Shown here piece by piece: positions 10,621-17,268 of a stretch of 64,000 nt of DNA (the first letter of the stretch is position 1; each line of letters begins with the position of its first letter). Below the pieces are notes generated by a model, which was given only the letters and a program-made list of their open reading frames with translations, was not told the DNA's origin and ran no database searches. This DNA is from Formosa sediminum (GTDB lineage Bacteria > Bacteroidota > Bacteroidia > Flavobacteriales > Flavobacteriaceae): positions 3,195,001 through 3,259,000 of the forward strand of contig NZ_CP041637.1 in assembly GCF_007197735.1 (NCBI RefSeq), in the 5' to 3' direction. The position numbers and the translations under genes are program-made.

Positions 10621-12156
10621 TTATTTTTCTTGAACAGGTGGTTCTGGTTGCCTAAATAAATCCAGGTAAGCTTTACTTAAATTAGAAACCACATCAGAAG
10701 CTATTAAACTTTGGTAGCCTTTAGTTTCTACAGCAATATCTGCCGATTTACCATGTAAATACATTCCAAAACAAACGGCTTCTAAAGCTGTATACCCTTG
10801 CGCGAGAAGTCCTGTTATAACACCCGTAAGGACATCTCCTGTACCTCCTGTAGCTAAACCTGGATTGCCAGTAGAATTTATATAAAATTTATCCCGATAT
10901 ACTGCTATAGAATGTGCTCCTTTAATAAGTACTAAAACATTGTATTTTTTTACAAATGCTTTGGCTTTTTCTAACTTATCAAAATCGTCTTTCCATGGTC
11001 CAATTAAGCGTTCTAATTCTTTTGGATGTGGCGTTAAAATAGTGTCTGGTTTTAAGTACGCTAACAGATTTTTATGTTTTGATAAGATATTTAACGCATC
11101 GGCATCAATAACTAAGGGCACCGTATTTGATTTTAAAAAAGTAGTAAATGCTTGAATTGTTTTTCTTTCTGTACCAATCCCAACACCTATTCCAATTACA
11201 GTTGGTTGTATGTTGTAATTTATATTAGTTATTACTTTTTTATGAGTATCGGTTATTACCATAGCTTCTGGGAAAGCCGTTTGTAACGGAATATAACCAC
11301 ATTTTGGCACATAAGCAGTTACCAAACCTGCTCCGGCTGCTAAAACAGCTCGACTTGCTAATTGTACCGCTCCTATTTTACCATAACTTCCTCCTATAAT
11401 TAATCCATGTCCAAATGTGCCTTTGTGAGAATATCTATGACGCTGTTTATACATTGGTAACACATCAAATTTACCCAAAATTTCTGCTTCCGTTTCTGTG
11501 TGTTGCAAATATTCCGGATCGATACCTATATCTAAAGCTTCCCACTGTTCAATATACTTTGCTGCTTCTGGCAAGAAAAACACCAATTTAGGCGTCTGAA
11601 AACTAAGAATAAAATTAGAGGATACAACTTCATTTTCATTTTCTGGTATTTTATCTGTAAACAATCCTGAAGGCATGTCAATAGAAATTGTTAATGCCCC
11701 TGAAGTCTTAAAATGCTCAAATAAATTAACCACCCAACCGGCAATTGGTCTATTTAAACCAACACCAAAAATAGCATCAACAATAATATCTTTAGTTGTA
11801 ATTTCTGGTAAACTATCGTGTTCATGGAGAGAGGTTGGCCAATCTTTAGTTGTTTCTTTTAAACGTTCGTAGTTCACTAAAAAATCTTTGGAACGACTAT
11901 CACTATAATCTACAATAAATGTTTTTACATTATAACCATGCGTTATTAAATGTCTGGCCAAGACCAAACCATCGCCGCCATTATTTCCAATACCACAGAA
12001 AATTAAAATAGGAACTGGTGCCCCTTGCAATCTAGCATCTAACCAGTTAAATAAACTTATTCCTGCACGCTCCATTAAATCGGCCGAGCTAATATTTTGT
12101 TTTTTTATAGTTAATCTATCGCCTTCGTAGATTTGTTCTTTTGAAAATATTTTCAT
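10621..12156 (-). CDS. nnr: Bifunctional NAD(P)H-hydrate epimerase / ADP-dependent NAD(P)HX dehydratase
   Basis: The 511-residue fusion repairs hydrated NADH and NADPH. The N-terminal domain (about 1-215, YjeF_N/NnrE) has CGIGNNGGDGLVLARHL, which epimerises R and S forms of NAD(P)HX. The C-terminal domain (about 225-500, NnrD) has the ribokinase-like motifs ILTPHPKELERL and ATGGTGDVLTGVITG, where the nucleotide and catalytic Asp reside; it dehydrates S-NAD(P)HX at the expense of ADP. Both domains look complete. The gene is convergent with fumC and divergent from the thr leader region. Confidence 0.95.
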   Translation of the reverse strand: MKIFSKEQIYEGDRLTIKKQNISSADLMERAGISLFNWLDARLQGAPVPILIFCGIGNNGGDGLVLARHLITHGYNVKTFIVDYSDSRSKDFLVNYERLKETTKDWPTSLHEHDSLPEITTKDIIVDAIFGVGLNRPIAGWVVNLFEHFKTSGALTISIDMPSGLFTDKIPENENEVVSSNFILSFQTPKLVFFLPEAAKYIEQWEALDIGIDPEYLQHTETEAEILGKFDVLPMYKQRHRYSHKGTFGHGLIIGGSYGKIGAVQLASRAVLAAGAGLVTAYVPKCGYIPLQTAFPEAMVITDTHKKVITNINYNIQPTVIGIGVGIGTERKTIQAFTTFLKSNTVPLVIDADALNILSKHKNLLAYLKPDTILTPHPKELERLIGPWKDDFDKLEKAKAFVKKYNVLVLIKGAHSIAVYRDKFYINSTGNPGLATGGTGDVLTGVITGLLAQGYTALEAVCFGMYLHGKSADIAVETKGYQSLIASDVVSNLSKAYLDLFRQPEPPVQEK

Positions 12157-12294
12157 TCTTAATAATTTTAGAAAAAAACCATTAGAGATTATTCAGTTAA
12201 ATAGATTTTAATTGATTTTAAATAAAAGAATTCTAGATAACAGTAAATAATCTGCAAAAAATTATAATACATTTTTTTATATCAGTAAAAGTAA

Positions 12295-12302
12295 TACATT
12301 TG
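12295..12302 (+). promoter_or_regulatory. Putative promoter -7 element of the thr leader transcript
   Basis: TACATTTG matches the Bacteroidota -7 consensus TAnnTTTG. It would start transcription about ten bases before the leader ATG at 12322 and about 200 bases before thrA, as expected of an attenuated operon. No clear -33 element is seen. Confidence 0.4.
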
Positions 12303-12321
12303 AGAAGTTTAGTTACAAAAA

Positions 12322-12426
12322 ATGCAAAATACAATATACATTACGCGTTATATTTTAAGACCAACACATGTTGGTGCTATTGCTATTATTTCTATCTTAA
12401 ACATTATTACCCCTTGGGGTAATTAA
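12322..12426 (+). CDS. thrL: Candidate Thr/Ile-rich leader peptide of the threonine operon
   Basis: The frame from ATG 12322 to TAA 12424-12426 encodes 34 residues, of which nine are isoleucine and four threonine. It begins MQNTIYITRYIL and ends IITPWGN. It lies 86 bases upstream of thrA, whose product makes precursors of threonine and isoleucine. Two perfect hairpins lie inside it and a third follows. This is the design of an amino-acid attenuator such as E. coli thrL, although no sequence homology to thrL is claimed. The symbol is used by analogy of position and composition. Confidence 0.55.
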   Translation: MQNTIYITRYILRPTHVGAIAIISILNIITPWGN

Positions 12427-12469
12427 TTATATATCTTCCGTCCACATAATTTGTAATGCTACATTACAA
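12361..12469 (+). promoter_or_regulatory. Hairpin cluster, possible thr operon attenuator
   Basis: Three strong hairpins lie in order. CCAACA-CA-TGTTGG is at 12361-12374. ATTACCCC-TT-GGGGTAAT is at 12406-12423 and covers the Ile-Thr-Pro-Trp-Gly-Asn codons just before the leader stop. TTGTAATG-CTA-CATTACAA is at 12451-12469. None is followed by a long T-run, so a classical rho-independent attenuator is not obvious. The mechanism could be a weak terminator, Rho-dependent or translational. Confidence 0.45.
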
Positions 12470-12512
12470 TTTCAACATATTAAGCTATTAAATTTATACA
12501 ATCTACTTTAAA

Positions 12513-14960
12513 ATGAAAGTATTAAAATTCGGAGGAACATCTGTAGGGTCCTCAAAAAACATAACTAACGTTGTATCCATCTTAACCAAATATGCTCAAA
12601 CAGACAAAGTGATTTGTGTGGTTTCTGCAGTAGGTGGAATCACAGATAAACTACTAGAAGCTGGACAGTTAGCTCAATCTAAAAACAGTGCATATACTGA
12701 TGCATTTACGAACATAAAAAACATTCATATTAATATTGTTAAGGAATTAATTCCTACAGATAATGAGGCCGTTATTAATTATGTAAACACCAAATTAGAA
12801 GCCTTAAAAAACCTGTTAGATGGGATTTACCTAATTAATGAATTATCGCCTAAAACTTCTGATAAATTGGTAAGTTTTGGAGAATTACTTTCGTCTTATA
12901 TTATTGGCGAAACACTTAAAAGTCAAGGCGCTAACGCAGAACGTAAAAATAGTCAGGAATTAATTACTACCAACTCTAATTTTACTAAAGCAGAAGTAAA
13001 TTACACGATTACAAATAGTAATATTCAGGAATACTTTGAAAATAGTACGTTTGATATTACCATCTTACCTGGTTTCATTTCAAAATCTGTAACTGGCGAA
13101 ATCACAACCTTAGGTCGTGGCGGGTCTGATTTTACAGCTGCAATTGTGGCTGCTGCCTTAAAAGTTGAACAATTAGAAATTTGGACAGATGTTAGTGGTA
13201 TGTATACAGCCAATCCTAAAATGGTTAAACAAGCACTTCCTATTAATAAATTATCGTATCAAGAAGCTATGGAATTGTCTCACTTTGGGGCAAAAGTATT
13301 ATATCCGCCTACAGTACAACCTGTGTTAAGTTTACAAATTCCTATACATATAAAGAATACTTTAGAACCTGATGCTGTTGGCACCATTATTTCTAAAGAT
13401 GGTAGCAATGTAAATAATGCTGCTAAAGGAATTACTAATATCAGCAATATTGCATTATTAACTTTACAAGGTAATGGAATGGTTGGTATTCCTGGTTTTT
13501 CTAGACGTTTATTCCAAACCTTAGCACAAGAAAAAATAAATGTTATATTAATTACCCAAGCCTCTTCAGAACACTCTATTTGTTTTGGTATAGATGAAAA
13601 GGACGCCGTTGCAGCAAAATCGGCTATAGATGCCGAGTTTGAAAATGAGATTTCATTAAATAAAATAGACCCTATCTTAGTTGAAAGTAACTTATCTATT
13701 ATTGCGCTTATTGGTGATAGTATGAAAAGTCACCAAGGTATTAGCGGAAAGATGTTTAGTGCTTTAGGAAAAAATAATATTAATATACGTGCTATCGCTC
13801 AAGGTGCATCAGAGCGTAATATCTCTGCAATAATTGCGCAAAACGATGTTAAAAAAGCATTAAATATTTTACACGAAGTATTTTTTGAAGGCAACATAAA
13901 ACAACTAAATGTATTTATTACAGGTGTAGGAAATGTAGGTGAGCGTTTGGTAGAGCAAATTAAACAACAACGTAAATATTTAAAAGACAATTTAAAAATT
14001 AACTTACGCGTTGCTGGACTTTCTAACTCTAGAAAAATGCTGTTTGACACAGATGGTTTATCATTAAAAAACTGGAAAGAACAACTAGAACAAGACGGTG
14101 AAACTGCTACATTAGAAGGTTTTTACGAGTCTGTAAAAAAATTAAACTTACGTAATAGTGTATTTGTAGATGTTACAGCAAATAAAGATGTAGCGGACTT
14201 ATATGCCAAATATTTAAAACAAAGTATTGCTGTTGTAGCATGTAACAAAATTGCATGTTCTAGTAAATTAGAAAAATATAAAGAATTAAAACAATTATCG
14301 TATAAATACAATGCGCCTTATTTATTTGAAACAAATGTTGGTGCAGGTTTACCGGTAATTGATACTTTAAATAATTTAATTGCTTCGGGAGATAAAGTAA
14401 CGTCTATTCAGGCGGTGTTATCTGGAAGTTTAAACTTTGTATTTAATAACTTTAATGATACTACTAAATTTTACGATGTGGTTAAACAAGCTGCGGCCGA
14501 AGGCTATACAGAGCCAGACCCACGTATTGATTTAAGTGGCGTAGATGTAGCTCGAAAAATATTAATTCTTGCGCGAGAAAGTGGTACAGAAATGAATTTG
14601 GAAGATATAGAAAACACACCATTCTTATCAGAATCTGGTTTAAAAAGCGATACGGTAGCCGATTTCTATGAAACTCTAGTTGCAGATGAAGCACATTATC
14701 AAGCTTTATACGCTTCAGCTAAAGCCAATAACAGTCAGTTAAAATACGTCGCCGAATTTAACGAAGGAAAAGCAAAAGTTGGATTAAAAGAAATTCCTGA
14801 AGGACACCCATTCTACAATTTAGAAGGAAAAGATAATATTGTTATGTTTTACACACAACGTTACCCAGAACAACCTATGATTATTAAAGGTGCTGGTGCT
14901 GGTGCAGATGTTACTGCCTCTGGATTATTTGCAGACATTATCCGTATAGGGAACAACTAA
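12513..14960 (+). CDS. thrA: Bifunctional aspartate kinase / homoserine dehydrogenase I
   Basis: The 815-residue fusion phosphorylates aspartate and reduces aspartate semialdehyde to homoserine. The kinase domain starts MKVLKFGGTSVGSSKNI and carries TLGRGGSDFTAA near residues 195-206. Two ACT regulatory modules occupy about residues 305-460 (SEHSICFGID, GKMFSALGKNNINIRAIAQGASE). The dehydrogenase begins with the Rossmann motif VFITGVGNVGERLVEQ near 468 and includes ETNVGAGLPVI and EGYTEPDPRIDLSGVDVARK. The ACT domains suggest allosteric control by threonine, as in the family. It heads thrABC, preceded by the candidate leader. Confidence 0.97.
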   Translation: MKVLKFGGTSVGSSKNITNVVSILTKYAQTDKVICVVSAVGGITDKLLEAGQLAQSKNSAYTDAFTNIKNIHINIVKELIPTDNEAVINYVNTKLEALKNLLDGIYLINELSPKTSDKLVSFGELLSSYIIGETLKSQGANAERKNSQELITTNSNFTKAEVNYTITNSNIQEYFENSTFDITILPGFISKSVTGEITTLGRGGSDFTAAIVAAALKVEQLEIWTDVSGMYTANPKMVKQALPINKLSYQEAMELSHFGAKVLYPPTVQPVLSLQIPIHIKNTLEPDAVGTIISKDGSNVNNAAKGITNISNIALLTLQGNGMVGIPGFSRRLFQTLAQEKINVILITQASSEHSICFGIDEKDAVAAKSAIDAEFENEISLNKIDPILVESNLSIIALIGDSMKSHQGISGKMFSALGKNNINIRAIAQGASERNISAIIAQNDVKKALNILHEVFFEGNIKQLNVFITGVGNVGERLVEQIKQQRKYLKDNLKINLRVAGLSNSRKMLFDTDGLSLKNWKEQLEQDGETATLEGFYESVKKLNLRNSVFVDVTANKDVADLYAKYLKQSIAVVACNKIACSSKLEKYKELKQLSYKYNAPYLFETNVGAGLPVIDTLNNLIASGDKVTSIQAVLSGSLNFVFNNFNDTTKFYDVVKQAAAEGYTEPDPRIDLSGVDVARKILILARESGTEMNLEDIENTPFLSESGLKSDTVADFYETLVADEAHYQALYASAKANNSQLKYVAEFNEGKAKVGLKEIPEGHPFYNLEGKDNIVMFYTQRYPEQPMIIKGAGAGADVTASGLFADIIRIGNN

Positions 14961-15017: not shown

Positions 15018-15944
15018 ATGAACGAAGTAAAAATATTTTCTCCTGCTACTGTGGCTAATGTCTCTTGCGGATTTGATGTGTTAGGCTTTTGCCTGGATAG
15101 TGTTGGAGATGACATGGTAATACGTAAAACCGATAAAAAAGGGATTTTTATAACTAAAATTGAAGGGTACGATTTACCCTTTGAAGCAGAAAAGAACGTG
15201 GCTGGAGTATCTGCTCTAGCCATGTACGAAGATGCTAAACCAGATTTTGGTTTTGAAATTGAAATCTATAAAAAAATTAAACCAGGAAGTGGTGTTGGTA
15301 GCAGTTCTGCAAGTGCTGCAGGTAGTGTTTTTGGAATGAATGTATTACTTGGTTATCCGTATAATAACACCCAACTCTCTTACTTTGCTATGAAAGGCGA
15401 AGCCTTAGCGAGCCAAAGTGAACATGCCGATAATATTGCTCCTGCCCTATTTGGAGGATTTACGCTTGTAAAAAGTGTCTCGCCTTTAGAGATTCTTGAA
15501 ATCCCTACGCCAAATAATTTATACGCCACTATTATACATCCGCAGATAGAGATTAAAACCTCAGAAGCACGCGCTATATTACCTAAAGAAGTCGCTTTAA
15601 AAGATGCCATTTCGCAATGGGCAAATGTAGGAAGTTTAATTCACGGATTATACACGAGTAATTACGGATTAATTGAACGTTCCTTACACGATGCTATTGT
15701 AGAGCCACACAGAAGTAAACTAATTCCGCTGTACCAAGATGTAAAAACAGCCGCAAAAGCAGCAGGTGCATTAGGCAGTGGTATATCGGGTTCTGGACCA
15801 TCTATATTTTCATTATGCGAAGGTATAGATACTGCAAAAAAAGTAGAACAAGCTATACGTAAAGTATACGCTAACAGCGACATTGCTTTCGACACCTATG
15901 TATCTAAAATTAATGCTGAAGGCATGAAAATACAAAATAACTAA
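15018..15944 (+). CDS. thrB: Homoserine kinase
   Basis: The 308-residue GHMP kinase phosphorylates homoserine for threonine synthesis. It starts MNEVKIFSPATVANVSCGFD, typical of ThrB. The ATP-binding GHMP motif KPGSGVGSSSASAAG lies at about residues 90-105 and the C-terminal motif LGSGISGSGPSIF at about 252-264. It is 57 bases downstream of thrA and 25 bases upstream of thrC, so the three genes form one operon. Confidence 0.96.
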   Translation: MNEVKIFSPATVANVSCGFDVLGFCLDSVGDDMVIRKTDKKGIFITKIEGYDLPFEAEKNVAGVSALAMYEDAKPDFGFEIEIYKKIKPGSGVGSSSASAAGSVFGMNVLLGYPYNNTQLSYFAMKGEALASQSEHADNIAPALFGGFTLVKSVSPLEILEIPTPNNLYATIIHPQIEIKTSEARAILPKEVALKDAISQWANVGSLIHGLYTSNYGLIERSLHDAIVEPHRSKLIPLYQDVKTAAKAAGALGSGISGSGPSIFSLCEGIDTAKKVEQAIRKVYANSDIAFDTYVSKINAEGMKIQNN

Positions 15945-15969: not shown

Positions 15970-17268
15970 ATGAATTTTTTTAGTTTAAATAAAGAAGCTG
16001 CAAACACATCATTTAAAGATGCCGTTATTAGAGGACTTGCACCTGACCGTGGTTTATATTTCCCAGAATCTATAACTCCACTACCAGACGATTTTTTCAA
16101 GAATATTGATAAGCTATCGCATTCAGAAATTGCATTCGAGGCCATTAAACAATTTGTGTCTCCAGAAATTCCTGAAGCCGAATTAAAAACAATTGTTGAA
16201 GAAACGTTATCTTTTGATTTCCCTGTTGTAGAGCTAAATAAAAACATTTCGTTTTTAGAATTATTCCATGGGCCAACTATGGCGTTTAAAGATGTTGGCG
16301 CACGTTTTATGGCGCGTTGTCTAGGCCATTTTTCTAAACAGAACGCTAAACAAGATGTAACTGTTTTAGTTGCAACTTCTGGAGACACAGGAGGAGCTGT
16401 TGCTAACGGATTTTTAGGTGTAGAAGGTGTAAAAGTTGTGATTCTTTATCCAAGCGGCAAAGTGAGCGATATACAAGAAAAGCAATTAACAACTTTAAAA
16501 AAGAACATTACCGCTTTAGAAGTAGATGGCACGTTTGACGATTGCCAAGATATGGTAAAAAAAGCTTTCTTAGATGCCGAGTTAACAGACCATATAAAAT
16601 TAACATCAGCAAATTCAATAAATGTTGCGCGTTGGTTACCGCAATTATTCTATTTTATGTTTGCTTATAAACAGCTTCATAACAAGTACGATAATCTTGT
16701 ATTTTCTGTTCCTAGCGGAAATTTCGGAAATGTTTGTGCAGGAATGATGGCACAACAATTAGGTTTACCTATTAAACATTTTATAGCATCAAATAACGAA
16801 AACAACGTGGTTACACGTTATTTAGAATCTGAACATTACGATGTAAAACCATCTATACAAACCATATCTAACGCTATGGATGTTGGGAACCCAAGTAACT
16901 TTGTTAGAATACAAGAAATTTATAAAAACGATTTTAAAACTTTAAAAGAAAATTTATCGTCTTACAGTTTTACAGATAAAGAGACTAAAGTCGCTATGAA
17001 AGAAATTTATAACGATTATAGTTACATTGCAGATCCGCATGGTGCTGTTGGGTATTTAGGAGCAAAAAATTATGTAGAAACACATCCAGATGCACACTGT
17101 GTATGTTTAGAAACAGCTCACCCCACTAAGTTTTTAGATGTTGTAGGCGAAGTTATTCCTGAAAACATAGCATTACCACCTCAAATTGTGGCAGTAATGG
17201 ATAAAAAGAAAAAATCTATAGAAATAAGCACATACAGCGACTTAAAAACATATCTTTTAAATCGTTAA
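15970..17268 (+). CDS. thrC: Threonine synthase
   Basis: The 432-residue PLP enzyme converts O-phosphohomoserine to threonine. The N-terminus has APDRGLYFPE. The PLP lysine is in HGPTMAFKDVGARFM near residue 107, followed by VATSGDTGGAVANGFLG, and the phosphate loop is FSVPSGNFGNVCAGM. The long-form length and the LETAHPTKF motif near the C-terminus fit the family. It is the last gene of thrABC and is followed by a strong terminator. Confidence 0.96.
   Translation: MNFFSLNKEAANTSFKDAVIRGLAPDRGLYFPESITPLPDDFFKNIDKLSHSEIAFEAIKQFVSPEIPEAELKTIVEETLSFDFPVVELNKNISFLELFHGPTMAFKDVGARFMARCLGHFSKQNAKQDVTVLVATSGDTGGAVANGFLGVEGVKVVILYPSGKVSDIQEKQLTTLKKNITALEVDGTFDDCQDMVKKAFLDAELTDHIKLTSANSINVARWLPQLFYFMFAYKQLHNKYDNLVFSVPSGNFGNVCAGMMAQQLGLPIKHFIASNNENNVVTRYLESEHYDVKPSIQTISNAMDVGNPSNFVRIQEIYKNDFKTLKENLSSYSFTDKETKVAMKEIYNDYSYIADPHGAVGYLGAKNYVETHPDAHCVCLETAHPTKFLDVVGEVIPENIALPPQIVAVMDKKKKSIEISTYSDLKTYLLNR

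Follow-up and report, generated by a model that had tools for sequence, protein, structure and literature searches.

In enterobacteria, the thrABC operon is preceded by thrL, which encodes a Thr/Ile leader peptide and exerts classical ribosome-mediated attenuation; attenuation in proteobacteria is said to have been treated by Vitreschak et al. in 2004. Leader-peptide regulators of the tnaC and mgtL kind are Rho-dependent. Here we describe the region upstream of thrABC in a 64,000-nucleotide stretch of the genome of Formosa sediminum (Flavobacteriaceae; contig NZ_CP041637.1, positions 3,195,001 to 3,259,000; hereinafter the window, in which positions are given unless a contig is named). Given the frame-specific Thr and Ile codons and the hairpins that covary in relatives, positions 12295-12512 are almost certainly a Thr/Ile leader-peptide regulator of thrABC. 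The element resembles the enterobacterial thr leader in that a Thr/Ile leader peptide stands in front of thrABC but differs from it in the apparent absence of an intrinsic terminator and in the location of a hairpin, denoted P2, on the last codons and the stop codon of the leader. It would be akin to the tnaC and mgtL kind if stalling in the short open reading frame (ORF) decides termination without an intrinsic terminator, with Rho being a candidate here.

For Bacteroidota, there are few descriptions of control by leader peptides. In flavobacteria, such control has been suggested before: a transcriptome study of Flavobacterium psychrophilum from 2021 (PMC9723704) sees 'strong clues' that operons for amino acids are attenuated by means of leader peptides, and it lists pheA and hisG with the conserved 5' elements, the hisG element being one of Flavobacteriaceae. 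In the literature accessible without subscription, we found no description of the thr element; the supplement of the same study, with its 64 structured 5' regions, may hold one. We also came across no account, in the literature searched, of the hairpin at the stop codon, of its wide occurrence and its inversion, or of the lack of a terminator.

The leader ORF upstream of thrA

The leader ORF (12322-12426, plus strand; MQNTIYITRYILRPTHVGAIAIISILNIITPWGN) encodes 34 amino acids, including 9 Ile and 4 Thr, and is located between thrA and an opposite-strand ORF that starts at 12156. Its stop codon is separated by 86 nt from the start of thrA (12513-14960, plus strand), the gene for the bifunctional aspartate kinase/homoserine dehydrogenase I (NF006959, 1039 bits with a cut-off of 726). 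The 13 Ile and Thr codons compare with a mean of 7.1 in dinucleotide shuffles, of which 7 of 2000 reached this number. At 19 nt before the leader ATG, there is a TAnnTTTG box (TACATTTG, 12295-12302, plus strand), the predicted promoter box of the leader transcript; this promoter consensus is given in PMC9723704. The original prediction had already pointed to this frame, its codon content, its distance from thrA and a box about 20 bases before it, and all these features were recovered in our analysis. A short Thr/Ile-rich ORF in this position is what is expected of an amino-acid leader-peptide attenuator.

For comparison, we used the 80 closest of the 413 named loci that encode a ThrA relative, a sample in which distant species are under-represented and the closest ThrA proteins, 93-95% identical to that of the window, are those of Formosa. 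Together with the window these loci make up 81 rows, and the 68 rows with P2 within 215 nt of thrA were scored as leaders. A hairpin of the form ACCC-N4-GGGT that begins with an ACC codon of an open frame was detected within 215 nt upstream of thrA in 67 of the 80 loci (68 of the 81 rows with the window counted). In L009 and L014, P2 is found further upstream, and the thrA start seems to be set too far downstream, so that the leader arrangement, with an open frame that is mostly Thr/Ile-rich, is present in 69 of the 80 loci altogether. Within the genus, the leader peptide was matched in 6 of 6 genomes (weakest E 0.05).

Across the 68 leaders, Thr accounts for 43%, and Thr and Ile together for 63%, of the last 11 codons of the frame (ending at ACC), compared with 3% Thr plus Ile in the other two frames. 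All four Thr codons, ACA, ACT, ACG and ACC, are used before P2, and the Thr codon inside P2 is ACC in 68 of 68 leaders, a uniformity that is partly built in because ACC belonged to the search pattern. In 64 of the 68 leaders, an in-frame ATG has a TAnnTTTG box 8-45 nt upstream of it, compared with 15% at random anchors, and the distance from the leader stop codon to thrA is 70-94 nt (mode 82). Conserved Ile/Thr codons and covarying stems, which the original prediction had named as checks of the leader, are both found in relatives. The TPWGN end of the peptide, named there as well, is not conserved: the ends vary (TPWGN, TLWGC, TLLGY, TRLGC and shorter ones), the encoded RNA hairpin is kept instead, and the P2 loop of L021 and L072 contains the stop codon. 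Given the varied ends and the stop codon in the loop, selection appears to act on the RNA hairpin and not on the peptide tail.

Hairpins of the leader and their spread in Bacteroidia

Hairpin P2 (12406-12423, plus strand; ATTACCC/GGGTAAT) is formed by the last codons of the ORF, its ACC being the last Thr codon, and has a conserved ACCC-loop-GGGT core. Hairpin P1 (12360-12375, plus strand; ACCAAC/GTTGGT) is located in the ORF before the Ile/Thr-rich end, and hairpin P3 (12451-12469, plus strand; TTGTAATG/CATTACAA), which has no U-tract, lies between the stop codon and thrA. P2 and P3 are separated by a conserved stretch that is AU-rich and then pyrimidine-rich (12428-12443, plus strand), mostly TATATATTCTTC in Flavobacteriaceae; several other loci have ACATATAATCC after P2. 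P1 and P3 are present as originally proposed, and so is a hairpin at the site of P2, although its stem cannot extend to the full ATTACCCC/GGGGTAAT pairing suggested at first because four of the bases are needed as the loop.

Taken in its entirety, the 241-nt leader of the window shows no unusual stability (z -1.6; equalled by 15 of 200 shuffles), so the case rests on conservation; the energy z-scores of the stretch after P2 are unremarkable as well (mean -0.5; 6 of 68 below -1.64), so stability by itself is no proof. In the window, P1 is stronger than in 40 of 40 codon shuffles, and P3 yields p=0.016 against 60 shuffles. In the majority of loci, P1 lies within the ORF some 35-55 nt upstream of P2. 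The mean for its best stem is -4.6 kcal/mol, compared with -1.0 in codon shuffles (p<=0.05 in 33 of 68 loci), and its sequence varies among species with the pairing retained (ACCAAC/GTTGGT, TTACCATT/AATGGTAA, TTTCGTCT/AGACGAAA). For P2 and P3, covariation was assessed in an alignment of 44 of the 68 rows that were picked by us. In this alignment, 82.7% of the cells are paired, 31 cells are changed on both sides (the shuffles give 16.9, and none of the 500 reaches 31), and nine pairs show both-side changes, a count reached by 6 of the 500 shuffles; sliding the partners of P2 and P3 reduces every measure except the count of both-side-changed pairs at +1, which is also 9. The four central pairs of P2 are invariant in this set, and seven of the nine P3 pairs show both-side changes. 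At 57 of the 62 loci with any hairpin in this place, the start of P3 is 27-31 nt (about 28) downstream of P2. Consensus folding of the 68 sequences recovered P2 alone because gaps scatter P3. Two pairings inspected by eye, namely of the Thr-codon region with the 5' arm of P3 and of the 3' arm of P2 with the 3' arm of P3, were dropped since P3 changes without matching changes in these partners.

A class-wide search for ThrA gave matches in 73 of 256 genomes, and 67 loci (L112-L178), fetched from part of the matches, were sorted by eye and not blind. In 26 of these 67 loci, a Thr-containing frame ends in a P2-like hairpin (weak in L147), in many cases with the stop codon within the loop. The 26 loci span eleven families by code, with 5 of the 26 belonging to the window's own family (f1). 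In family f30, the P2 stem is inverted, ACGGG-loop-CCCGT (L136, L138, L145 and L150, and L157 with a longer loop), which amounts to three pairs changed on both sides. A ACATATAATCC-like stretch follows P2 in L113-L119, L122, L124 and L126, and in several of these it is followed by GGGCTT/GGGTTATC.

Of 120 Flavobacteriaceae genomes, 36 had a match to a covariance model of P2 and P3 (E<=0.05), always at a single place, in a search whose filters lose weak matches. The ten matches that were fetched all precede thrA, as does the window's own, which was checked besides these; with one match per genome in these 36 genomes and all ten fetched ones before thrA, no occurrence before other operons was found. 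At 12280-12560, the only Rfam matches were three with E values of 0.39-3.4, each well short of its gathering score, and no NCBIfam family matched five leader peptides at E<=1. Elsewhere in the window, there are a 6S-Flavo RNA (RF01685; 33546-33673, minus strand, 98 bits) and a Flavo-1 RNA (RF01705; 43490-43561, plus strand, 66 bits), the latter of unclear function according to PMC9723704.

The other two genes of the operon are thrB, encoding homoserine kinase (15018-15944, plus strand; TIGR00191 above cut-off), and thrC, encoding threonine synthase (15970-17268, plus strand; TIGR00260 above cut-off). The genome encodes two more aspartate kinase relatives (G000:C1:476406-478805 and 1246096-1247412) that are 35-36% identical to ThrA; by eye, the stretch before the former (L178) has no leader of the thr kind.

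Intrinsic terminators in thr, trp and his leaders

Terminators were scored as a hairpin plus a T-run over positions -200 to +15, with dG<=-8 as the threshold. The G+C-rich hairpin followed by a U-run that defines a classical intrinsic-terminator attenuator was found in 0 of the 68 Flavobacteriaceae thr leaders; the one row among the 81 that passes is leaderless (L064), and in the window, no terminator-like site was detected on either strand at 12160-12700. The same scan that is negative at the window's thr leader finds a terminator in the trp leader of the same genome. Among relatives, a score of at least -12.8 kcal/mol in strength is attained by all 6 his leaders and by 11 of 12 trp leaders, the miss being L094. 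Given that the trp and his leaders score positive and the thr leader scores negative, the prediction from sequence is that a single genome employs intrinsic terminators for trp and his but none for thr.

The Bacteroid-trp leader RNA (RF01692) shares with the thr leader the presence of a leader peptide and the phylum but differs in that the codons are those for Trp and that an intrinsic terminator is present (AAGGCTTGTC..GACAAGCCTT with a T-run), including in the window's genome, where an RF01692 match at G000:C1:273925-274047 (L190; 49.6 bits, just above the cut-off) is followed by an intrinsic terminator. Upstream of hisG, the his leader of the same genus likewise encodes a peptide, one with a run of four His codons, and differs in its strong terminator, which has a T-run and about -18 kcal/mol in each of 6 genomes. 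In the window's genome (L101; G000:C1, upstream of 3134745, minus strand), the four His codons (MNFIQFHHHHFHTCT) and a strong terminator, by score, precede hisG. A further contrast is provided by the thr leaders of f53 (Bacteroidia), which are likewise Thr/Ile-rich and precede thrA but have intrinsic terminators of -8.5 to -22.5 kcal/mol at nine loci (L143, L144, L146, L148, L153, L159, L160, L162 and L170), with no P2 seen; by eye, a GGAGGAAG-like leader end matches a CTTCCTCC-like terminator arm in several f53 loci.

The thr leader very likely works without an intrinsic terminator, and the joint statement that thrABC is under leader-peptide control without such a terminator, with Rho left aside, is likely to hold. 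The remark in the original prediction that no hairpin carries a T-run, and the ensuing doubt as to classical intrinsic attenuation, agree with these scans.

Possible mechanism of control and alternatives

Ribosome-mediated control of the operon by its own Thr/Ile leader, as originally proposed, is strongly supported by the frame-specific codons and the covarying hairpins, and the control would most likely proceed as follows. When charged tRNA-Thr or tRNA-Ile is short, the ribosome would stall in the Ile/Thr codons and cover the 5' arm of P2, which holds the last Thr codon, so that P2 would be kept unfolded and the operon would be read. When both Thr and Ile are sufficient, the ribosome would reach the stop codon and leave, P2 would fold, and most transcripts would end before thrA. 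The regulatory codons adjoin the covarying P2, and no well-conserved alternative pairing was found in the tests of pairing and openness over the 68 loci.

Given the absence of an intrinsic terminator and a spacer that is C-rich and G-poor, premature Rho-dependent termination within 12427-12512 is our best guess for the output, albeit a tentative one. This candidate Rho-loading region (plus strand; P3 lies inside) contains 15 C and 4 G, the composition expected before the first gene in a Rho-dependent leader attenuator, and its C:G ratio is the highest among the 28 upstream regions of the window, that of thrA included. The rho gene is present in the genome. C exceeds G in the spacers of 68 of 68 Flavobacteriaceae leaders, and in 20 of the 26 class-level loci with P2 compared with 17 of 38 loci without it. 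The leaders have a median C:G ratio of 2.17; for the 11 loci of the family that lack a leader, the median is 0.87 (p 2e-7). This comparison is not corrected for relatedness, and promoter and upstream DNA forms part of its leaderless controls.

This last caveat belongs to a series of observations that weigh against the proposed scheme. The argument for Rho is one of composition; the next C:G ratios among the window's upstream regions are 2.7 and 2.4, six class-level loci with P2 (L113, L119, L131, L156, L158 and L166) lack the C excess, and YC dinucleotides are not above shuffles (higher in 35 of 68). P2 is absent from 11 of the 80 closest thrA loci and is not seen in 41 of the 67 class-level loci, of which nine have a scored terminator, L163 resembles those, and 31 have neither (27 of them served as controls without P2 in the spacer comparison, and four, L175-L178, belong to another paralogue). 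P3 reaches p<=0.05 in 36 of 68 loci only and is missing in 6 of 68, including four from Gelidibacter. A link between P2 and the spacer, whereby the freed G-run of P2 would mask the pyrimidine stretch, has modest support from predicted pairing (2.41 versus 1.71; 43 of 68 loci), and the stretch is less open in 49 of 68 loci, but the effect goes the opposite way in the window itself, and by its logic this switch cannot work in f30 because the arms of P2 are exchanged there.

Alternatively, P2 itself could be the terminating or pausing hairpin, in which case a stalled ribosome covering its 5' arm would make an antiterminator unnecessary. P2 is the most constant part of the leader and adjoins the regulatory codons, an AU-rich stretch follows it in most Flavobacteriaceae and many other loci, and in two f27 loci (L131 and L134) P2 with a T-rich tail just passes the terminator score at -8.1; however, the stem is short and no T-run follows P2 in the Flavobacteriaceae leaders, the window included, which makes this possibility an unlikely one. 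That P3, or another weak hairpin, serves as an intrinsic terminator in the manner of the trp and his leaders appears very improbable. P3 does covary at a near-fixed position, and at least six T occur in the following 8 nt at 6 of 62 loci, but the mean after P3 is 3.1 T of 8 compared with a background of 3.4, the stems are mostly AU, and the window has no such site; P3 was accordingly rejected as a terminator. Still less credible is a non-regulatory ORF, that is, either a chance frame, against which the frame-specific Thr/Ile codons speak, or thrA transcription from its own start in the spacer. A second TAnnTTTG box 23-25 nt after P2 does occur in 15 of the 68 leader-bearing rows (L004, L007, L018, L019, L022, L025, L033, L035, L044, L047, L048, L049, L052, L054 and L068; 4.3 expected), preceded in 12 of the 15 by TTG 17-23 nt before, and might yield a second, leader-independent thrA transcript in those rows, but it is absent from the four Formosa-type rows checked (the window, L002, L011 and L020). 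Furthermore, a box and flank (GTAAAWGTAATACWTTT) resembling those of the leader promoter are found 40-55 nt upstream of thrA in six of the 11 leaderless loci (L046, L063, L066, L071, L078 and L079), which looks like a deletion of the intervening leader.

The original prediction had also allowed for a translational switch, in which the leader structure would hide or free the thrA start. Bacteroidota mRNAs are described, in PMC7366714, as devoid of classical Shine-Dalgarno sequences. The minimum-energy fold of the window has the CUUCC stretch base-paired to codons 6-9 of thrA. When every second one of the 68 loci was examined, however, this pairing was higher than with shuffled stretches in 15 of 34 (p 0.93) and higher than with synonymous codons of thrA in 10 (p 0.007, i.e., weaker), and swapping thrA between species made no difference (32 of 68), so that pairing of the pyrimidine stretch with thrA codons was rejected. 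Hiding of the start codon was rejected as well: the predicted openness of the thrA start is nearly equal with P2 open (0.487) and closed (0.494), the direction of the difference (p 0.0016) goes against the switch model, and the value equals that of 26 other window genes (0.491). With no support from these folding tests, such a switch is improbable.

Coming back to leader-peptide control without an intrinsic terminator, we tentatively suggest that eleven families of Bacteroidia, including that of the window, may share a class of terminator-less threonine attenuators in which a small hairpin on the last Thr codon, at or near the stop codon of the leader, passes the choice on to Rho or polymerase pausing. 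In this possible class, P2 would report whether the ribosome stalled or finished, within a genome whose trp and his operons rely on ordinary terminators. The element is small, occurs in many families of the class and has one match per genome in the 36 genomes matched. Natural controls are at hand in the terminator-bearing trp and his leaders of the same genome, the terminator-bearing thr leaders of f53 and the leaderless thrA loci, and how attenuation runs without an intrinsic terminator is a question that can be directly tested at the thr leader.

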